Shown here: positions 3,293-12,115 of the stretch, piece after piece
Layout: every line of letters begins with the position of its first letter
Numbering within the stretch: the first letter of the stretch is position 1
NCBI GenBank assembly: GCA_027493375.1
Contig: JAPVWO010000284.1
Span: forward strand, 1 to 46,681
DNA: 46,681 bases
Source of the DNA: Candidatus Multivorans thiocomprendens
GTDB lineage: Bacteria > Acidobacteriota > Thermoanaerobaculia > Multivoradales > Multivoraceae
Reading direction: 5' to 3'
Notes under the pieces: model-generated
Told to the model about the DNA's origin: nothing
Database searches by the model: none
Seen by the model: only the letters and a program-made list of their open reading frames with translations
Translations under genes and position numbers: made by a program

Positions 3293-3514
3293 ATGACGTC
3301 CCCGAACCTCCCACCGAATCTCCGCACACCGCGAACCAGACCGCACGCCGGTCATCGGCTGCGCGGATGGAACCCCCGACTCTCCCAGCCTCCGGCCAGC
3401 GCCCTTGAAGCACGCCTGACCCGCGCGTTCCACATGCTCGGCGCTCCGTCCGCGCCACTCGTCTCGATGCTGCACAGCCGGTCCACCGGCCTGGCGGGAA
3501 GGCGGCGGCGATGA
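3293..3514 (+). CDS. Small ORF leading the peptide operon, unknown function
   Basis: A 73-residue arginine- and proline-rich reading frame. It starts with ATG at 3293 behind a GGAGCTGG purine stretch, and its stop overlaps the ATG of the thioredoxin-like gene (ATGA at 3511-3514). That overlap and the GC-rich third positions in its second half (around ALEARLTRAFHML) favour translation. The first third is low-complexity and could be non-coding. I recognise no domain. A competing 42-residue ORF begins at 3280 (MELDDDVPEPPTE) in another frame. If real, it may be a coupling peptide or a regulator of the operon. Confidence 0.35.
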   Translation: MTSPNLPPNLRTPRTRPHAGHRLRGWNPRLSQPPASALEARLTRAFHMLGAPSAPLVSMLHSRSTGLAGRRRR

Positions 3515-4017
3515 ACCGGCGCCGTCTGGCCACCGCTGCCATCGTCGTGGCCGTTCTCGCCCCCCTCGGGGGTCTGCTCTGGTTCGAATCCGGGATCCGC
3601 GCCCGGCAGGCCCAGCGCCCGGAAGTCGGCGCGATGTTCCCCGCGCTGCCGGGCTTCGCGGACGGCGAGACCCTGCCGGCCGCTCCCGGCCGGCTCCGGG
3701 TCGTGACCTTCGCCAGGGCCGGCTGCGGGAACTGTGACCGCACCATCACCGCCCTGCAGCGCATGGCCCGGACCGAGGGTCCGACCTTCGACCTGATCGC
3801 GGTCGTCGCCGGCTCGGGTTCGCCCGAACCCGGCGGCGACGGCGTCCACGCGGCCATCGCCGATCCGGACGCCTCCGTCTCGAGGCGCTTCGGCGTGGTC
3901 CACGTGCCGCTCGTGTTCCTGGTCGACGGACAGTCCCGGATCCTCGCGGTCGCCACCGGCGAACGTCCGGAGACCGCCTGGCGCACCTTTCTGGAGGCCG
4001 GAACCGATGCGCTCTGA
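3511..4017 (+). CDS. Thioredoxin-like (TlpA/ResA-type) membrane-anchored protein
   Basis: 168 residues. An N-terminal hydrophobic segment (about 6-24) should anchor the protein facing the periplasm. The thioredoxin fold follows, with the redox motif CGNC at residues 72-75 (context RAGCGNCDRT) and the usual later segment VVHVPLVFLVDG carrying the cis-proline. Such proteins reduce, oxidise or isomerise disulfides of exported substrates. The gene overlaps the C39 peptidase gene by 11 bases and lies just upstream of four small exported proteins that each carry exactly two cysteines, so I infer that those peptides are its substrates. Alternatives are cytochrome c maturation or a general reductase, but no maturation genes are nearby. 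Confidence 0.85.
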   Translation: MNRRRLATAAIVVAVLAPLGGLLWFESGIRARQAQRPEVGAMFPALPGFADGETLPAAPGRLRVVTFARAGCGNCDRTITALQRMARTEGPTFDLIAVVAGSGSPEPGGDGVHAAIADPDASVSRRFGVVHVPLVFLVDGQSRILAVATGERPETAWRTFLEAGTDAL

Positions 4018-4609
4018 CCGGTTCCGGATCCGCCCCCCGCACGCGGCCGCCGCCGGCCTGCTAGTTGCGGCCGGCCTCGTGACGGTCGCGGCCCGGGCAC
4101 TGGGGCCCACCATGGACCGGCTGGCCTGGGCCGCCACCCTCGACCCGTCGGCGCCGGCCCCGGGCGAGATCGTTCGCCAGCAAAGGCGCTCCGACTGCGG
4201 TCCGGCGGCCCTGAAGATGGTCCTCGACCATTGGGGCATCGAGGACGCCACGCTCGCCGAACTCGAGATCGCGACCGGAACCGGCCCGGACGGCACCAGC
4301 CTCCTGGCCCTCAAGAAAGCCGCCGAGGAACGGGGCGTGACGAGCCAGGGTCTCCGGCTTCCGGTCCACCGGCTCCGCGAGATCCCGCTCCCCGCGATCG
4401 CCCACGTTCACGGCGACCACTTCGTCGTCATTCGCAGCGCCGGCGACGCACTCGTCATCGACGACCCTTCCCTCGGCCGGTTGCGCATGAGTTCCAGGAC
4501 CTTTGAACGGTCCTGGGACGGCGTCGTTCTGGCCTTCACCGGCGGCCCGCCACCGATTTCCCGGACGGCCACGATGCCGTCCGTTTCACCCGCAACCCAC
4601 AACCCTTGA
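4007..4609 (+). CDS. Free-standing C39-family cysteine peptidase, membrane anchored
   Basis: 200 residues. After an N-terminal hydrophobic anchor (about 14-32) comes a C39 peptidase domain. The catalytic Cys64 lies in SDCGPAALKMVLDHWG with glutamines at 58-59 for the oxyanion hole, His138 lies in HVHGDHFVVI, and the Asp lies in IDDPSLG (152/153). C39 domains remove double-glycine leaders from bacteriocins and related peptides. They are normally fused to an ABC exporter and act in the cytosol. Here the domain is alone and its anchor implies a periplasmic position. It overlaps the thioredoxin-like gene and is followed after 15 bases by the first of four small secreted-protein genes, two or three of which carry GG/GA motifs. 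Its last codons lie inside the duplicated leader region. Assignment is strong; the substrate is inferred from position. Confidence 0.88.
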   Translation: MRSDRFRIRPPHAAAAGLLVAAGLVTVAARALGPTMDRLAWAATLDPSAPAPGEIVRQQRRSDCGPAALKMVLDHWGIEDATLAELEIATGTGPDGTSLLALKKAAEERGVTSQGLRLPVHRLREIPLPAIAHVHGDHFVVIRSAGDALVIDDPSLGRLRMSSRTFERSWDGVVLAFTGGPPPISRTATMPSVSPATHNP

Positions 4610-4760
4610 AGGAGATATCCCTCGATGAAACTCCGCATTTCTTTCCTTTCCCTCTTCTTCCTGTTTCTCACCGGCGCCGTGATGGCGACGCCGACCACCG
4701 GCGAGGCGCCGGACTCGGGCGACGTCACACTGGTGGCCGCCTGGGACGTCGGGCCGGTCG
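4575..4760 (+). repeat. Tandem duplication, copy 1: 5' UTR plus leader of a peptide gene
   Basis: The 50 bases before the gene at 4625 and its first 45 or so codons closely match 5163-5349. Shared blocks include CACCC-CAACCCACAACC, AAGGAGA-ATCCCT and the coding block for MATPT-GE-PD-GD-TLV-AW. The copy starts inside the end of the C39 gene. Similarity stops where the two mature regions begin. Confidence 0.8.
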
Positions 4761-4936
4761 CCGCCCATGACGGCTACGCCCTCCGGCCGGAGGCGCCGAT
4801 ACGGACGGCTGTGTACCTCCCCTGGCCCTGCGACGGCTTTCCCTTTCCTCCCTCGCCCCGCCCCTTCCCGGTTCCCTGGCCGTTCCCGAGCCCGTGGCCC
4901 GGTCCCGACAAGTGCCTTCCCCCCATTCTCTTCTAG
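4625..4936 (+). CDS. Small secreted proline-rich two-cysteine protein (precursor-like)
   Basis: 103 residues with AAGGAGA before the ATG. Residues 1-21 form a clear Sec-type signal peptide ending in VMA. Residues 22-46 (TPTTGEAPDSGDVTLVAAW) are shared with the paralogue at 5214. The rest is unrelated to it: a Pro/Phe/Trp-rich stretch between Cys69 and Cys97 (FPFPPSPRPFPVPWPF), ending in KCLPPILF. The pattern of conserved leader and divergent tail resembles ribosomal peptide precursors. Unlike its neighbours it has no obvious GG or GA motif before the tail, so its processing would differ. Function is unknown. Confidence 0.75.
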   Translation: MKLRISFLSLFFLFLTGAVMATPTTGEAPDSGDVTLVAAWDVGPVAAHDGYALRPEAPIRTAVYLPWPCDGFPFPPSPRPFPVPWPFPSPWPGPDKCLPPILF

Positions 4937-4976
4937 CCCCGCGTTCTGACATCCAAGAGCCTCAAGGAGAAGCGAA

Positions 4977-5150
4977 ATGAAGGCCACATCAACTCTGATC
5001 GCGAACCTGCCCGAGGGAGGCCTAGCGACCGTCACCGGCGGTACCGACCTTGTCGTCTCCTGGCCTTGCATGGTGCTAGCGGCACTGGTCGACACCATCG
5101 CTCCCGGCCTGGGCGCCCTGATCGCCCTTAGCTGCTACTTCCCAGTCTGA
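4977..5150 (+). CDS. Double-glycine-leader peptide, bacteriocin-like precursor
   Basis: 57 residues, ATG 4977 behind CAAGGAGAAGCGA. It begins MKATSTLIANLPEGGLATV, followed by TGG. Measured from the cleavage point after GG, hydrophobic residues fall at -12 (Leu), -7 (Leu) and -4 (Val). This is the arrangement C39 peptidases recognise in class II bacteriocin leaders. The predicted mature peptide is 35 residues, hydrophobic and glycine/alanine-rich, with two cysteines (mature positions 9 and 31) and ending SCYFPV. There is no Sec signal peptide, unlike the three neighbours, so it would need an ABC-type exporter. It sits 367 bases after a C39 gene. The leader is seen directly; antimicrobial activity is inference. 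A signalling peptide is an alternative. Confidence 0.78.
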   Translation: MKATSTLIANLPEGGLATVTGGTDLVVSWPCMVLAALVDTIAPGLGALIALSCYFPV

Positions 5151-5162
5151 GCCAAAGCGAAC

Positions 5163-5349
5163 CACCCGTCCGTCTCACCCACAACCCACAACCTTCAAAG
5201 GAGAAATCCCTAGATGAGATATCGCATCGCCCTCCTTTCCGTCCTCTCTCTGTTCTTCGCCGGAGCCGCTATGGCGACACCAACCGCAGGCGAGGTGCCC
5301 GACCCAGGCGACACCACGCTGGTCACTGCCTGGGGTCTCGGACGGGTCG
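5163..5349 (+). repeat. Tandem duplication, copy 2: 5' UTR plus leader of a peptide gene
   Basis: Second copy of the 4575-4760 unit. It covers the 50 bases before the gene at 5214 and its first 45 or so codons, with the same ribosome-binding region (AAAGGAGAAATCCCT) and the same leader coding blocks. The unit spacing of about 588 bases includes the GG-leader gene at 4977, so the duplication may have carried or been split by that gene. Confidence 0.8.
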
Positions 5350-5573
5350 CAACATCGGCCCCAGCCGTGTCCGCCCTCCAGCCTGCCCCGAGCCTCGGCC
5401 CGCAGTCGCTGTCTGACCGGGTTCTGGCTCGAACAGCAGGGGCAGGCCCCACTTCCGACTTCCTGTGCGGCGCGGCCACTGGCGCCGGCTTCGCTCTCGC
5501 CTTGACCGGCGTCGGTGCGGGCCCTGGTCTGGCGCTGGCAGGCGCTGGCATGGTCTGCGCCATGTTCTTCTGA
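5214..5573 (+). CDS. Secreted two-cysteine precursor with Sec signal and GA leader motif
   Basis: 119 residues. Signal peptide about 1-21 (ends AMA), then the block TPTAGEVPDPGDTTLVTAW shared with the protein at 4625. After a linker comes DRVLARTAGA, which lines up with ELLATATGG-type motifs of the neighbours (acidic at -10, Leu at -7, Gly-Ala at -2/-1), GA being an accepted variant of GG. The tail is about 42 residues, very Gly/Ala-rich and hydrophobic, with Cys85 and Cys115 near its two ends, ending MVCAMFF. I infer export by Sec, then cleavage by the C39 enzyme. The GA reading is less certain than the GG in the neighbours. Confidence 0.75.
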   Translation: MRYRIALLSVLSLFFAGAAMATPTAGEVPDPGDTTLVTAWGLGRVATSAPAVSALQPAPSLGPQSLSDRVLARTAGAGPTSDFLCGAATGAGFALALTGVGAGPGLALAGAGMVCAMFF

Positions 5574-5640
5574 ACTGGCCCTGCCAGAAGCCAATCAGGC
5601 CCTTCACACAAGACACTCTGAATCACTGAAAGGAAAAGAC

Positions 5641-5928
5641 ATGTCCAAGAAAGCAGTAGCTGCAACCGTCCTTCTCACGTTCGTGTTCGCCCTGGCCCCG
5701 GCCGCGGGCGCCAGTGGACCCACCGTCCCGACGGGCAGCATCCCGGTCGAGGCCGAGCAGACCGGGGAAGCGTTGCTCGCCACGGCAACCGGCGGAACGA
5801 ACTGGAGCTGCATCGGCGCGGTGCTCGCCTTCAGCTTCGTTGCCATGGGAGCCGGCGCCGCCACCGGCGGTGTCGGGGCCGCAATTGTCGGAGCCTACGC
5901 GCCTGTTGCGCTGGTCTTCTGCAAGTAG
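5641..5928 (+). CDS. Secreted two-cysteine precursor with Sec signal and GG leader motif
   Basis: 95 residues, ATG 5641 after GAAAGGAAAAGAC. Residues 1-24 are a Sec signal peptide (ending AAGA). The segment EALLATATGG at 43-52 closely matches EGGLATVTGG of the 57-residue peptide at 4977. Both are followed by Thr. The predicted mature part (53-95, 43 residues) is Gly/Ala-rich and hydrophobic with Cys57 and Cys94 at its ends, finishing VFCK. Two processing signals in one precursor is unusual: Sec export first, then a double-glycine cut by a periplasmic C39 enzyme. A longer in-frame start upstream exists, but only this ATG gives a signal peptide at the N-terminus. Confidence 0.78.
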   Translation: MSKKAVAATVLLTFVFALAPAAGASGPTVPTGSIPVEAEQTGEALLATATGGTNWSCIGAVLAFSFVAMGAGAATGGVGAAIVGAYAPVALVFCK

Positions 5929-6303: not shown

Positions 6304-7962
6304 ATGGCGACGTTCACGCACCCGGGTAGCCGGGCCGATCTGCTGCTGACGCTCGCGCGGCTGGCACTCCCGGATGCCGTGCGACGAGCCAAGCAGCCGC
6401 TGGCGGTGGCGATCCCGGTTGCCGTCCTGTTCCTCGTGTTCGCGACGGTCGCGACCCTGGGGCTGCTTCCGGCAATCTTCGCCATCGAGAGCGACGCCCT
6501 GAGGAGGAATCTCCTCAGCCTGATCGCCTGCTCCGTCACGGCGATCGCGTTGCTCGCCCGGGTGCTGCTTCGAGCCCCGGTCACCTGGCTGCTCGACCTG
6601 GAGGACCTGCTGCGGCTGCCCGTGGGCTTCCGGGACCTTTACGGCCTCCGTTTCGCCCTGAGCACGATCGGGTACTGGCTCCCCGTCCTCGGTCCCGCCG
6701 GCGTCTACCTCGCCGTCATGAGATCCGGAGGCGTCAGCGGAGCGCCGATCACACTGCTCGCCATTCTGAGCCTGGTCTGGATCTTCGGCCGCACGGCGGC
6801 GATCCTGTCGCTTCTCGTCAGCCGCTCAGTCGAAGGCGGACTCGGCACACTGGCCATGGTGGTGATCATGGCTGCCTGCCAAGGCGCGATTCTCTTCGGC
6901 TCGCTGGCGCTCGGCGGCGAGCTCGATTCCGAAGGGATCACTCGGGCAATCGAGGAATCCGCTGTTCTCGACGGCCTCGGCTACACGCCGCCCGGCCTTG
7001 TCGCCGGCATCGTCCACGAACCGGGGCCTTCGCTGCCGAATCTGGCGAGACTCGGCGGCCTGATGGCCGTTCTCGGCGCCCTGGCCGTGGTGGAGTACCG
7101 GCTCCTTCTTCGTAGCTACCTGGAGCGCCCCGGCAGTGACCGGCGAGTCGCTTCCGGGGTGCTTCCGCTGACCCGAGTACTCCGAAACTCGCGCCGTCTC
7201 ACTCCCATTGGGACTCTCTCGGCGCTCGAAATGGAATGCCTGTTGCGCCTCAAACCGGCAAGGCTGCTTCTGGCAATCGCGGCCGCCTTCGCCATGGTGT
7301 GGATACCGGCCCAAGCCGGTCTCACGGTCGGTCTCGCTGGGATCATCGGTCTTGCCCTTCACGGTTTCCGAGTCGAGAAGCAGCCGCCGACCTGCTACGT
7401 ATGGAGGGAATCGCTCGGCCTGCCCCTCACAGTCCCCCAGATCTTCCGCGCAACCGGCCGCGCGCCCGGCGTGATGAGCGTCTTCGTTCTTGCGTTCATC
7501 CTGGGTCTGACGCCGCTCGACTGGTTCGGCTGGGGCTTCTTCGTGGTTGCGTCCTGACTGATGCTCGCCGGCCTCCTCCTGGCAGACGCCGCACACGGCC
7601 TGATTCAGGTCTACTGGCCCCAACGCAGTACCGGCCCGAGCCACGAGACGAATGCCACCAAGTTCGCGGCGTCTCTCCTTGTACCGCAGGTCGCCTTTGC
7701 TCCAGCACTCCTCTCCTTCGCCCTGTACATTCTCTACGCTCGGGAGCGTCTCAGCGCTCTCGCCGCCGGGTTCATCGCAACGACAGTCCTCCTCCTCGCC
7801 GCCGCGGCCGCATACGCCTCTCGGAGACGGCAGGTTCGGGTGCTCAACGCGCGCGGGACTGAACTCCTGCTGGCGGATCCGCCAGAAACCGCACCGGCAA
7901 CGTCCGACCAGGCGCCCGACAGAGCGACTGACGGCACGGTGCGGAGGCCAGGCACGACCTGA
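6304..7962 (+). pseudogene. ABC-2-type permease copy 1, split by an in-frame TGA
   Basis: A 552-codon reading frame interrupted only by TGA at 7555-7557 (codon 418). Downstream the same frame continues without loss (LMLAGLLLADAAHGL to the stop at 7962) and matches the paralogue at 7970 to the C-terminus. The protein is a polytopic membrane protein with repeated hydrophobic segments, resembling permease halves of ABC-2 transporters, and pairs with the ATPase at 9608. The N-terminal half is almost identical to copy 2 (GSRADLLLTLARL, ESDALRRNLLSLIACSVTAI), while the C-terminal half has diverged. Copy 2 reads FVAVFLMLAG where this copy reads FVVAS-stop-LMLAG, so the stop replaces a Phe codon. Options: recent nonsense mutation, a 417-residue truncated product, UGA read-through, or a sequence error. 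Confidence 0.75.
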
Positions 7963-7969
7963 GGTCTCC

Positions 7970-9556
7970 ATGGCACCGATTGGCAAACCCGGTAGCCGGG
8001 CCGATCTGCTGCTGACCCTCGCGCGGCTGGTCCTGCCGGACGCCGTCCGTCGGAGCAAGCAGCCGCTGGCGGTGGCGATCTTCGTTGCCATCCTGTTCCT
8101 CGTGTTCGCGACTGTCGCGACCCTGGGGCTGCTTCCGGCGATCTTCGCCATCGAGAGCGACGCCCTGCGGAGGAATCTCCTCAGCCTGATCGCCTGCTCC
8201 GTGACGGCGATCGCGTTGCTCTCCCAGGTGCTGCTTCGTGCGCCCGTGACCTGGCTGCTCGACCTGGAGGACTTGCTGCGGCTGCCAGTCGGCTTCCGGG
8301 ACCTGTACGGACTCCGTTTCGCTCTCAGCACGATCGGCTACTGGCTCCCCGTTCTCGGTCCAGCCGGCGTCTACCTCACCGTCGCGAGATCGGGAGGCGT
8401 CAGCGGAGCGCCGATCACCCTGCTCGCCATCGTGAGCCTGGTCTGGGTCTTCGGTCGCACCGCGGCGATCCTGTCGCTTCTCGTCAACCGGCCGGTCGAA
8501 GGCAAGCTCGGCGCCCTGGCCATCGTGGCGATCGTTGCCGCGTGCCAGGGCGCGATCATGCTCGGGGTGCTGGCCTTCGGCGGAGAGATCGCTTCCGAAG
8601 GGCTCACCCAGGCGATCGAGGAGTCGGCCGTTCTCGGCGGGCTCGGCTACGCGCCGCCCGGACTCGTCGCCGCCATCGTCCACCAACCGGGGCCTTCGGC
8701 GTCGAATCTGGCGAGACTCGGCGGCCTGATGGCCGTTCTCGGCGTGTTGGCCGTACTCGAGAATCGGCTCCTGCTTCGCGGCTACCTGGAACGTCCCGGT
8801 GGCGACCGGCGCACGGCTTCCGGAAGCCTGCCGCTTGCCAGGCTGCTCCGCAAGGCGAAGCGTCTCACTCCAACGGGCGTCCTCACGCTGGTCGAGATCG
8901 AGTGCCTCCTACGTCTGAAGCCGGCACGTCTGGTTCTCGCGTTGGTCCTGGGTACCTCCCTCGTCGTCGTGCCTACCGCAGGGGGCTTCGCGGTGGGGCC
9001 GGCGGCGCTCTTCGCCATCTTTCTGAACGACTTTCGCATCGGAAAGCAGCCCCCGACCTGCCATGTATGGCGGGAGTCGCTCGCGCTGCCGTTCCCGGTC
9101 CGGAGGATCTTCAACGCGCCCGGCCGTGCGATGAACGTGGTCATCGTCTTCGCCATCGCGTTCATTCTGGGTCTGACGCCGCTTGAGTGGTTCGGGTGGC
9201 AGTTCTTCTTCGTCGCCGTCTTTCTGATGCTCGCGGGCTTCCTCATGGCCGCCGCAACGTACGGCCTGGTTCAGCTTCGCTGGCCCCAACGCAACGAAGG
9301 GTTCCTGCACGACCCCGACGGCCCCAGGCTCGGCGCCGCCGTGGTGGCCGCACACCTCGTCGGCCTGCCAGGCGCCCTCTCCTTTCTGCTCTGGGTGCTT
9401 CTGGAACGCCAGCGCGTGACGCCGCTGACCGCCGGAATCATCGCGGTCGCAGTCCTCCTCCTCGCCGTCGCGGCCGCCTACGCCTCACGACGAAGGCAGA
9501 GACGGCTGCTGGCAACCCGCGGCCGCGAACTCCTGCTCAAGGACCCGTCCCACTAG
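7970..9556 (+). CDS. ABC-2-type transporter permease, copy 2 (intact)
   Basis: 528 residues, ATG 7970, seven bases after the stop of copy 1. About ten or more hydrophobic segments occur (for example near 37-60, 75-100 and 130-160, and several in the last 150 residues), with a short basic C-terminal tail (YASRRRQRRLL). There is no ATP-binding motif. It is the membrane partner of the ATPase that starts 51 bases downstream. Together they would form an ABC-2-type system, moving the operon's peptides out or protecting the producer from them. The direction of transport is inferred. The earlier in-frame start at 7652 is out of the question because it would overlap the C-terminal coding of copy 1. 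Confidence 0.82.
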   Translation: MAPIGKPGSRADLLLTLARLVLPDAVRRSKQPLAVAIFVAILFLVFATVATLGLLPAIFAIESDALRRNLLSLIACSVTAIALLSQVLLRAPVTWLLDLEDLLRLPVGFRDLYGLRFALSTIGYWLPVLGPAGVYLTVARSGGVSGAPITLLAIVSLVWVFGRTAAILSLLVNRPVEGKLGALAIVAIVAACQGAIMLGVLAFGGEIASEGLTQAIEESAVLGGLGYAPPGLVAAIVHQPGPSASNLARLGGLMAVLGVLAVLENRLLLRGYLERPGGDRRTASGSLPLARLLRKAKRLTPTGVLTLVEIECLLRLKPARLVLALVLGTSLVVVPTAGGFAVGPAALFAIFLNDFRIGKQPPTCHVWRESLALPFPVRRIFNAPGRAMNVVIVFAIAFILGLTPLEWFGWQFFFVAVFLMLAGFLMAAATYGLVQLRWPQRNEGFLHDPDGPRLGAAVVAAHLVGLPGALSFLLWVLLERQRVTPLTAGIIAVAVLLLAVAAAYASRRRQRRLLATRGRELLLKDPSH

Positions 9557-9607: not shown

Positions 9608-10393
9608 ATGGAAGTAATCAAGGCAGAGAACCTGACCCGGTCGTACGGAGGCAACGTCGTCGTCGACGGCGTCGATCTCGACGTCCGGGAGGGACAGATC
9701 CTGGGCTTCGTCGGTCCCAACGGGGCCGGGAAGACAACGACCTGGTCGATGCTGACCGGGGTGCTCAATCCCACGAGCGGCACGGTCCACCTGCTCGGCA
9801 GGCCGATCGACATCAACGACACCAAGCTCAAGCAACAACTCGGCATCGTCCCCGACCACAGCGTGATGTTCGAGAGCCTGACCGGCGAGGAGCTGCTCCT
9901 GTCGTATGCCCGCATCTATGGCCTGAGCCGCGAGGACGCCGGGCAGCGGACCGACGAGGCGCTCTCGGTCTTCGACCTCGAAGACGCCGCCAGGCGACCG
10001 ATCACGACGTACTCGCACGGCATGAGGAAGAAGATCCGCCTAGCGGCAGCAACGCTTCACGCGCCGCGGGTCCTGTTCCTCGACGAGCCGTTCGAGGGGA
10101 TGGACGCCTTGAGCGCCCGCACCGTCATGTCGATCCTGCAGCAGATGGCCGAGCAGGGAGCAGCCATCTTCCTCACTTCCCACATGCTCGACTATGTCGA
10201 GCGGGTGTCCACCCACATCGCCGTCATCAGGGACGGCAAGGTCCTCCTGTCGTGTTCCCGGGAGGAGTTCCGCGAACTGCCCGCCGCCGAGGGAGAAGAC
10301 GGCGCCGGGCGGCTCGAAAACCTCATTCTCAGTATCTCCAGGCGCGAACGGTTCTCCCGCCTCTCCTGGATCGGCAGCAGGAGCGCGACATGA
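9608..10393 (+). CDS. ABC transporter ATP-binding protein
   Basis: 261 residues, ATG 9608 behind AAGGAAG. Complete ABC ATPase: Walker A GPNGAGKTT near residues 36-44, signature-like YSHGMRKKIRLAAA near 136, Walker B VLFLDEPFEGMD near 155, and H-loop TSHMLDYVE near 190. The signature is SHGMR rather than LSGGQ, as is common in ABC-2-type (drug or peptide export and self-resistance) ATPases. It is followed by a C-terminal extension of about 50 residues. It should energise the permease(s) at 6304/7970. Its stop overlaps the ATG of the next gene (ATGA at 10390), so the YIP1-like protein is translationally coupled to it. Confidence 0.93.
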   Translation: MEVIKAENLTRSYGGNVVVDGVDLDVREGQILGFVGPNGAGKTTTWSMLTGVLNPTSGTVHLLGRPIDINDTKLKQQLGIVPDHSVMFESLTGEELLLSYARIYGLSREDAGQRTDEALSVFDLEDAARRPITTYSHGMRKKIRLAAATLHAPRVLFLDEPFEGMDALSARTVMSILQQMAEQGAAIFLTSHMLDYVERVSTHIAVIRDGKVLLSCSREEFRELPAAEGEDGAGRLENLILSISRRERFSRLSWIGSRSAT

Positions 10394-11169
10394 CCGGACA
10401 TCCAGGCAGCACTCACGACGAACGCAGCGCCGAGACCGGCGGCGACCACTCACAGGGCCCGAACGCCTGGTTCAAGGCGCTGTTCTGCATCTTCGCGTCG
10501 CCGCGCCGGAGCTTCGAGATCATCCGGCACCGCAACCCGTGGCTCGCAACGCTGCTCCTGGTCCTGGCCGGAAACGCCGCCTTGGCCCTGGCCTCGGCGC
10601 CGCTGGGCCTCCAGGCCATGCGGGCCCAGCTGACGGAGCGGATGCCGGGCAGCCCGGACCAGGTCGACGCCATGATGGCGCAGTTCGAACAGGCAGCCGC
10701 GGCAGGGCGCTGGCTGGCGATGGCCACCGGTCCCCTCTCCGTGGCCCTCGGACTCGCGATTCAGACCGTCCTCGTGTGGCTCCTGGCGATCGCCCTCCAG
10801 GGACGGCTCCGATTCGTCCAGTCCCTCGCCTTGATGATCCACCTGGCCGTGATCACTCATCTCCAGAGCTGGGCCAACTTCCTTCTCCTCCACGTCCGTG
10901 GCACCGACGCGATCCGATCGCAACTGGACCTCCGGGCGCCGATGGGACTCGACCTGCTGCTGGCCGGCGACAACGCGACGCTCAACGTCGTTTACGCGAG
11001 CATCAATCCGTTCACGGTCTGGTTTCTCGCGTTGCTCGGCCTGGGCGCCGCCGCGGTGTTCGGGGTCCCGGAGCGCAAGGCCTGGCTGCTGGCCGCCATC
11101 TACTGGGCAACGACGACGGCCTTCACAGCCGCGGCGACCGGTCTGGCGGCCCGGCTCACGCCGACCTGA
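10390..11169 (+). CDS. YIP1-family integral membrane protein, copy 1
   Basis: 259 residues starting at the ATG that overlaps the ATPase stop. A short hydrophilic N-terminus leads into the motif WFKALFCIFASPRRSFEII, typical of the start of YIP1-domain proteins, followed by five or so membrane segments. Function in bacteria is poorly known. YIP1 proteins often accompany ABC-2 transporters. Position and coupling suggest an accessory membrane subunit or an immunity-type protein for the peptide system, which is inference. The related frame at 11215 follows after 45 bases. Confidence 0.75.
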   Translation: MTGHPGSTHDERSAETGGDHSQGPNAWFKALFCIFASPRRSFEIIRHRNPWLATLLLVLAGNAALALASAPLGLQAMRAQLTERMPGSPDQVDAMMAQFEQAAAAGRWLAMATGPLSVALGLAIQTVLVWLLAIALQGRLRFVQSLALMIHLAVITHLQSWANFLLLHVRGTDAIRSQLDLRAPMGLDLLLAGDNATLNVVYASINPFTVWFLALLGLGAAAVFGVPERKAWLLAAIYWATTTAFTAAATGLAARLTPT

Positions 11170-11214: not shown

Positions 11215-11914
11215 ATGGGCGATGAACCCGAGGCGAGCGGCTCCCTCCGGTTCAAAGCGCTGATCTGGATCTTCACCGCCCCGCGGAAGAGCTTCGCCGT
11301 CATCCGCGAGCACCACCCGTGGGTCGCCGGCCCGGCCGTGGGCAGCTCCCTGATCGTCCTGGCTGTTCTGCTGACGACATCGTGGTTCGCCGATGCGATG
11401 GACAGCATCGGTGATCCCCTCGAGATTCCCTACGGGATGGTTTCGTTCGCCTTCGCGGGCCATCCCGCTCCTGCTCCTGGTCGAGGCCGTCGTGCTCCGG
11501 CTCCTGGCGGCGGCCATGAAAGGTCGGGCGCGGTTCGAGCAGTGTCTGTCGCTGGCGCTGCATGTCAGCCTCATCGGCGCCACGGGGCTGGTCGTCCGCT
11601 CGCTGCTGAGAACCACCCAGGTCGACGGCATCCTCGATCTACAGCGGAACATCTTCGACCGGGGACGGGACTCCGGATGGGACGCGATGGGGCTTGTAGC
11701 CGACATGGCGCCGGGCGCGATTCTCGACCTGATGATCCACTCCTTCGCGTTCGTCTGGTCCTTTCTCCTGCTGGGGCTGGGCGCCGCCGCGGTGTTCCGC
11801 CTTTCCAGGCCAGCGGGCTTCGCCATCGCCGCGATCAACTGGGCGGCCGGCAAGGTGCTGGAGATGGGTCTGGCGGGCCTGGCGGTCGCGGCGATGACGG
11901 CGTCCCTACGCTGA
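11215..11914 (+). pseudogene. YIP1-family membrane protein, copy 2, with a +1 frameshift
   Basis: It begins at ATG 11215 (FKALIWIFTAPRKSFAVI, the same motif as copy 1) and reads in frame 1 to about residue 82 (GMVSFAFA). The homologous sequence then continues in frame 2 (AIPLLLLVEAVVLRLLAAAMKG) to the stop at 11914. One extra G in the GGG at 11457-11459 explains the shift. With it removed the protein would be about 232 residues with the family's usual membrane segments, including LLGLGAAAVFRL, which matches LLGLGAAAVFGV of copy 1. It could be a sequencing error, a recent mutation or, less likely, programmed frameshifting. Confidence 0.75.
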
Positions 11915-11964
11915 CCGGAACGATCGGCGTCCGGTCCGGCCCCACCCCGACAGGCGGCCGGGTC

Positions 11965-12115
11965 GTTTGACGGACCATCGACCGCGCGGTAGCTTCTCGC
12001 CGTTGGTTGTCGTCGCGCCGTGGGCCTGCGAGCCGGGTCTCCTGCCGAATACAACAGTCGACACCAGGCGCCGGGTCGCTCCCGGCGCTCGGCGAATAGG
12101 CAGGGCGTTTCGTGC
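11965..12115 (+). repeat. Interspersed structured repeat family 1, copy 2
   Basis: It shares with 6060-6215, in the same order, GTTTGACGGAC (11965), GTTGGT-GTC, GTGGGCCTGCGAGCCGG (12020-12036), CCTGCC and GGGTCGCTCCC. Here the TCGCT loop is closed by an 8-bp stem GCGCCGGG/CCCGGCGC (12068-12088), a different sequence from copy 1 but again fully paired. It fills most of the 11915-12226 gap, in which I see no gene. It lies immediately after the ABC/YIP1 module. Confidence 0.6.

Follow-up and report, generated by a model that had tools for sequence, protein, structure and literature searches.

The window, by which we mean the whole stretch of 46,681 nucleotides analysed here, belongs to a genome of 4.84 Mb in 339 contigs and carries on its + strand a thioredoxin-like gene, a peptidase gene and four small genes, followed by genes for membrane proteins and an ATPase. 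The first (3511-4017) encodes a TlpA/DsbE-like thioredoxin-fold protein with an N-terminal membrane anchor and a CGNC motif (Pfam TraF, 6.3e-5; weak matches to Thioredoxin_2 and DsbE), homologues of which sit 5' of C39 genes in loci of other families. It overlaps by 11 bases a gene for a standalone C39 peptidase (4007-4609), and the small genes, which we assigned to peptide families A (4625-4936), B (4977-5150), C (5214-5573) and D (5641-5928), lie 3' of the latter. Farther downstream are two copies of an ABC-2-like permease gene. The first (6304-7962) is broken by an in-frame TGA at 7555-7557, intact homologues being present in congeners, and the second (7970-9556) is intact, encodes 528 aa and has homologues in the main and most of the paralogous loci of the genus. 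These are followed by a DrrA-like ABC ATPase (9608-10393; TIGR01188, 2.5e-64, under the family cut-off), a gene kept alongside C39 in other families, and by a Yip1-domain membrane protein (10390-11169; Pfam Yip1, 2.2e-9) whose start overlaps the ATPase stop in an ATGA and which also adjoins C39 in loci L023/L075 and L118. Because of the overlaps between the thioredoxin and C39 genes and between the ATPase and Yip1 genes, the set probably forms one operon or two. A second Yip1-type gene, seemingly frameshifted and with its halves in different frames, was seen at 11215-11970 and 11393-11914; one frame gave a weak Yip1 match to residues 19-69 and the other matched a later part of the profile. The named near relatives of the window C39 gene were metagenome-assembled Acidobacteriota (Thermoanaerobaculia or "Holophagales bacterium" bins), several of them presumably from marine sponges, judging by the bin names.

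The 200-aa product of gene 4007 is a C39 family peptidase, its domain scoring well above the Pfam cut-off (Peptidase_C39, 3.6e-31; 108 bits against 22) and its catalytic set being intact, with Q58, C64, H138 and D153 invariant in an alignment of 13 relatives. The protein stops after this domain, without the fused transmembrane and ATPase domains that define a PCAT. An AlphaFold model placed an N-terminal helix at residues 13-31, followed by a confident C39 domain (pLDDT 85-95 in 10-residue blocks), and its best match in the PDB was the leader-bound double-glycine protease 6mpz (E 3.5e-13; TM-score 0.85 by target length), which is the LahT protease. The fold also matched PCAT1, and the sequence profiles agreed with the 6mpz match. 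The nearest NCBIfam model was an NHLM-type exporter peptidase (81 bits). As the basic N-terminus is followed by a hydrophobic helix, the positive-inside rule suggests that the catalytic domain lies on the periplasmic side. It was the sole C39 found in this genome at E <= 1e-3. A search for ABC-fused C39 proteins in 20 congeners yielded none, every match being a short open frame, and the same search found them readily in other genera; the contig search for C39 relatives had the single window protein as query and returned matches from the genus only.

A periplasmic C39 with Sec-exported substrates is also what a Fap-like functional amyloid system would present, and Fap-like loci of the same phylum (L126-L133) encode substrates that combine a Sec signal with a leader-like motif (QAISNEELDSQRGG in L133). 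Nevertheless, the window C39 scored best to NHLM/LahT-type peptidases and failed the FapD equivalog test with 46.8 bits against a cut-off of 330, a value that the Fap-like comparison set did not reach either (90-141 bits). A tree built from 54 C39 domains put the Fap-like proteins on a separate supported branch (99/93) and the window protein, with low support (80/63), among other standalone C39s from the phylum. Moreover, the peptide cores described below are Gly/Ala-rich rather than Asn/Gln-rich, and no FapF-like gene was found among the annotated neighbours (thioredoxin, permease, ATPase and Yip1). We therefore regard a Fap-like system as a highly improbable reading of the locus.

The genes at 5214 and 5641, whose open reading frames are where the earlier note had placed them, are each preceded by a Shine-Dalgarno-like site, and the latter starts with ATG. 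The family C precursor (119 aa) consists of a putative Sec signal (about residues 1-21), a spacer, the leader QSLSDRVLARTAGA and a hydrophobic two-Cys core of 42 aa, and the family D precursor (95 aa) of a putative Sec signal (about residues 1-24), a spacer, the leader EQTGEALLATATGG and a two-Cys core of 43 aa. The leaders end in DRVLARTAGA/G and EALLATATGG/T, respectively (the slash marks the putative cut), with GA at residues 76-77 of the former protein (5439-5444) and GG at residues 51-52 of the latter (5791-5796). The combination of a Sec-type signal and a double-glycine-type leader proposed in that note was thus seen in both proteins. The Sec part of this statement is based on a simple home-made rule (K/R, an uncharged hydrophobic stretch and an AxA site) rather than on SignalP or another trained predictor, and by this rule most homologues also carry such an N-terminus. 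The distance of 40-55 residues previously given for the motif was only roughly right: counted from the likely signal-peptidase site it suits the 5214 protein (about 55 residues) but not the 5641 protein (about 28). As had been noticed, all three window peptides with a leader have an acidic residue, Leu and Ala at positions -10, -7 and -6, respectively.

With signal prediction this crude, the hydrophobic segment might instead be an uncleaved membrane anchor, in which case a single C39 cut would free the peptide from the membrane; C39 is itself membrane-anchored, and the spacer could span the distance to its active site. However, most members have an AxA-type site (AMA/T, AGA/S) after their hydrophobic segment, and we consider this explanation unlikely.

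When each was scored by itself against shuffles, by means of a leader profile built from other loci only, the window motifs were weak (p = 0.12 for C and 0.10 for D), and E, B2 and several relatives gave p <= 0.005 with the same profile. The alignment of homologues, by which the earlier note had proposed to check the motif, supported conservation far beyond chance for the set as a whole. Sites were counted relative to the first core Cys, since a rule taking the best G[GATS] anywhere was misled by the Gly-rich cores. A G[GATS] within 16 residues before that Cys was present in 27 of 29 non-redundant Sec precursors (2000 shuffles: mean 16.9, maximum 24), and in 19 of the 29 position -7 was hydrophobic as well (shuffle mean 5.5, maximum 12). 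Among the 27 aligned leaders, position -10 was acidic in 59%, and hydrophobic residues occupied -12 in 78%, -7 in 70% and -4 in 63%, Ala at -6 being found in a third. The resulting consensus (L-12, S/T-11, D/E-10, E-8, L/M-7, V/L-4, G-2, G/A-1), which can be written L[ST][DE]xELxxVxG[GA], matches the published leader grammar LSX2ELX2IXGG (PMC3897388). As a set, these proteins qualify as double-glycine precursors (LSxxELxxIxG[GAS] before a short core), an assignment that is weaker for the two window peptides taken alone. All 13 D homologues aligned keep G51 and G52, and all 14 C homologues keep G76; position -1 was T or S in some members and once R (LARTVGR in L050), which is unusual for C39. 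The neighbourhoods of PCAT genes, used as a control, contained only three clear leaders (L138, L142 and L145), all lacking a Sec signal and too few for a statistic.

We surveyed the small genes 3' of C39 in 20 readable congener loci. Family A, a Sec-type Pro-rich peptide with two Cys and lacking a G[GA] leader, was present in all 20 and is thus an exception within the operon. Its Pro-rich peptide is PFPVPWPFPSPWPGPDKC, and the alleles of L050 and L052 lack the spacer; since the spacer is missing in some alleles, family A may be a Sec-only product. Family B (55-61 aa, with a GG leader and devoid of a Sec signal) was found in 12 of the 20 loci. Its window member is a 57-aa peptide with a canonical leader (GG at 5037-5042), and an upstream extension that would provide this gene with a Sec signal is ruled out by an in-frame stop at 4947. 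The third and fourth slots were occupied by a C+D pair in 13 loci and by an E+F pair in five, never by both together among the 20, and in this they resemble the exchangeable cassettes of two-peptide bacteriocins. L053 has another pair instead, and L062 contains a C-type gene together with a fusion (6378-6842) in which a family C-type leader (ALELKAVSGT) is joined to a Pro-rich core of the family A type, likely another product of module exchange. The paralogous C39 loci of the genus (L066-L071) have Sec peptides of their own, and the leaders of these are close to perfect (ELLSDEELAAVSGG, ELMSDDQLDAVVGA, AELSTAAMEEVVGG, ERLTEAEMVDIVGA and TILTDAELVSVEGT). In other families, the order thioredoxin, C39, Sec plus G[GA] peptide was repeated in L022, L023 and L113-L115, L116 being a partial case, and a search for precursors near the related standalone C39 genes of L117-L119 found no convincing ones. 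The cores are 35-52 residues long, contain two Cys, and are Gly/Ala-rich and hydrophobic (GRAVY 1.2-1.7) with a net charge near zero. GxxxG, a hallmark of two-peptide bacteriocins, was not more frequent in them than in shuffles. None of the precursors could be assigned to a meaningful family in Pfam or NCBIfam, and these searches found no antibacterial homology for the cores; a match of the 5641 protein to TMEM100 (E 0.0016; 18.5 bits, cut-off 34) was taken as low-complexity noise.

Comparison at the nucleotide level pointed to separable modules. Gene 5214 was 93-100% identical per 10-codon block to the family E gene of congener locus L047 through codon 49 (5214-5360, the Sec signal and spacer), and identity then fell to 40-60%; the family C gene of L046 depicted the reverse pattern, with about 40-50% at the start and 86-96% over the leader and core. 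The joint lies between the spacer and the leader, and gene 5214 is by this comparison a natural chimera, with 49 codons of Sec signal and spacer from one family and the leader and core from another. In family E, one leader-core was found with two unrelated Sec modules. Taken together, these two cases indicate that the two parts, Sec and leader-core, move independently of each other, which would be expected if the former serves export and the latter a later step.

These data also bear on the idea that maturation needs nothing but Sec and signal peptidase I, in which case the G[GA] leader would be a relic of ancestors exported by ABC-fused C39 transporters and the present C39 would serve only family B or something else. 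The Sec-only family A in the same operon and the low individual scores of the window motifs agree with it, as does the observation that FapB and FapC seemed unprocessed past their signal peptides (PMC5557850). A relic should decay, yet G-2 is invariant in C and D and the glycine motif is retained in nearly the whole set, and leader and core have been joined, as one unit, to different Sec modules. We thus consider the relic explanation quite improbable.

We believe that a bacteriocin-like peptide operon with two-step maturation, i.e. Sec export and then a periplasmic C39 cut at the leader, is the probable explanation for these results. The products of families C and D (and of E, F and others in relatives) would be exported by Sec and released by signal peptidase I, leaving a propeptide in which a short spacer precedes a helical leader of the double-glycine type. 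The TlpA-like protein would handle the disulfide, and the membrane-anchored C39, putatively facing the periplasm, would recognise the leader by its hydrophobic positions (-12, -7 and -4) and cut after G[G/A/T/S], releasing the hydrophobic Gly/Ala-rich two-Cys core of some 35-50 residues. The order of the two steps, which the earlier note had put forward, is well supported comparatively by the conservation of the motif, the sole, membrane-anchored and active-site-complete C39, the module swaps and the occurrence of the same architecture in several families. What counts against it includes the low individual scores of the two window motifs, the T, S or R at -1 in some members, the absence of antibacterial homology and of GxxxG enrichment in the near-neutral cores, the lack of convincing precursors near L117-L119, and two families of the same operon, A having a Sec signal and lacking the G[GA] leader and B having the leader and lacking a Sec signal. 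Since the latter lacks a Sec signal and C39 is apparently periplasmic, family B would need another route to the protease or be handled differently.

The most likely role of the ABC-2 transporter and Yip1 proteins would be protection of the producer, with help in export as a possibility, and it is this context that hints at a bacteriocin function. The permease and ATPase are retained whichever cassette is present, so that protection by them would be general and not cargo-specific. With the same two-step maturation, the peptides could target the producer itself or its kin instead of competitors, in signalling or in programmed lysis as proposed for the Neisseria Naps. The cores are indeed hydrophobic and near-neutral, and Naps gave no killing of competitors (PMC11798529); however, the ABC-2 and Yip1 neighbours and the exchangeable cassettes suggest self-protection and a setting of competition, and we see an action on producer or kin as possible but on the whole doubtful. 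Going beyond two-step maturation, it is quite possible, if short of probable, that the locus represents a distinct class of Gram-negative two-peptide bacteriocins whose maturation takes place entirely outside the cytoplasm, in which, independently of FapD, a LahT-type C39 would have been relocated to the periplasm, Sec-spacer modules would have recombined with whole leader-core modules, cargo would be freely swapped and a Sec-less sibling would reach the same protease by another route across the membrane. The lineage offers dozens of natural candidate substrates with a readable shared leader, with which one could test directly in E. coli how periplasmic C39 proteases recognise their targets, and a natural example of export signals being exchanged with the maturation site untouched. 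It also illustrates that double-glycine searches limited to the first 30 residues or to ABC-fused C39 miss bacteriocin-like peptides in diderm bacteria.

Among described systems, several share parts of this arrangement. In class II bacteriocins and microcins with PCAT or LahT-type proteases, the protease fold, the LSxxELxxIxGG grammar and the small two-Cys cores are the same, but there an ABC-fused (or cytosolic) protease does the cutting on the cytosolic side, and export relies on the leader alone. Sec-dependent bacteriocins share the Sec signal as export route and mature at the signal-peptidase site, without a second leader. A search of the literature for bacteriocin systems known to pair Sec with C39 yielded Fap and nap only, and the claim of the earlier note that no standard system has this order was wrong as stated, these two being precedents. 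Pseudomonas FapD is a C39 experimentally shown to be periplasmic, and FapE, its likely substrate, is Sec-exported, loses about 70 N-terminal residues and carries GG/GA motifs (PMC5557850); on these grounds the Sec-then-C39 order has a precedent, amyloid fibres being the main setting in which such two-step maturation has been known. The target of FapD was called unclear (PMC5557850). The likeness to the window, where the location is read from the N-terminal helix and the Sec-type precursors, would be that of a periplasmic C39 with a Sec-exported GG/GA-motif substrate. In contrast, Fap has another C39 lineage, an Asn/Gln-rich amyloid cargo and the FapF pore, whereas the window locus has two-Cys bacteriocin-like peptides, canonical leaders, a thioredoxin, ABC-2 and Yip1. 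In the phylum itself, L126-L132 (genomes G193, G342, G475, G323, G412, G266 and G288) have a FilB/FapD-type C39 beside a Sec protein with an LDRVTAAG-like motif and an Asn-rich tail (NLSSLININAVNS...NLNVNINSTVGT), and in L133 two Sec proteins (676-1044 and 1772-2257) with canonical leader motifs (SVSAEQLEDQAGG and QAISNEELDSQRGG) flank a FapD-like C39 and are candidate natural substrates for the FapD question. Since these Fap-like loci also combine Sec signals with leader-like motifs, the theme is broader than the present finding. In the Neisseria nap island (NapP C39, NapF pore and NapABC peptides), NapP was modelled to cut GG peptides in the periplasm (PMC11798529), and the window shares with it GG bacteriocin-like peptides and a separate, putatively periplasmic C39. 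The Nap peptides differ in having no described Sec signal (the NapH holin was suggested for crossing) and in the company of a FapF-like pore, with no thioredoxin mentioned; family B, likewise lacking a Sec signal, resembles them, and Naps pose the same crossing puzzle (PMC11798529). By the literature searched, what seems new is the Sec-then-C39 order for bacteriocin-like peptides with canonical leaders, together with a TlpA-like partner and exchangeable modules.
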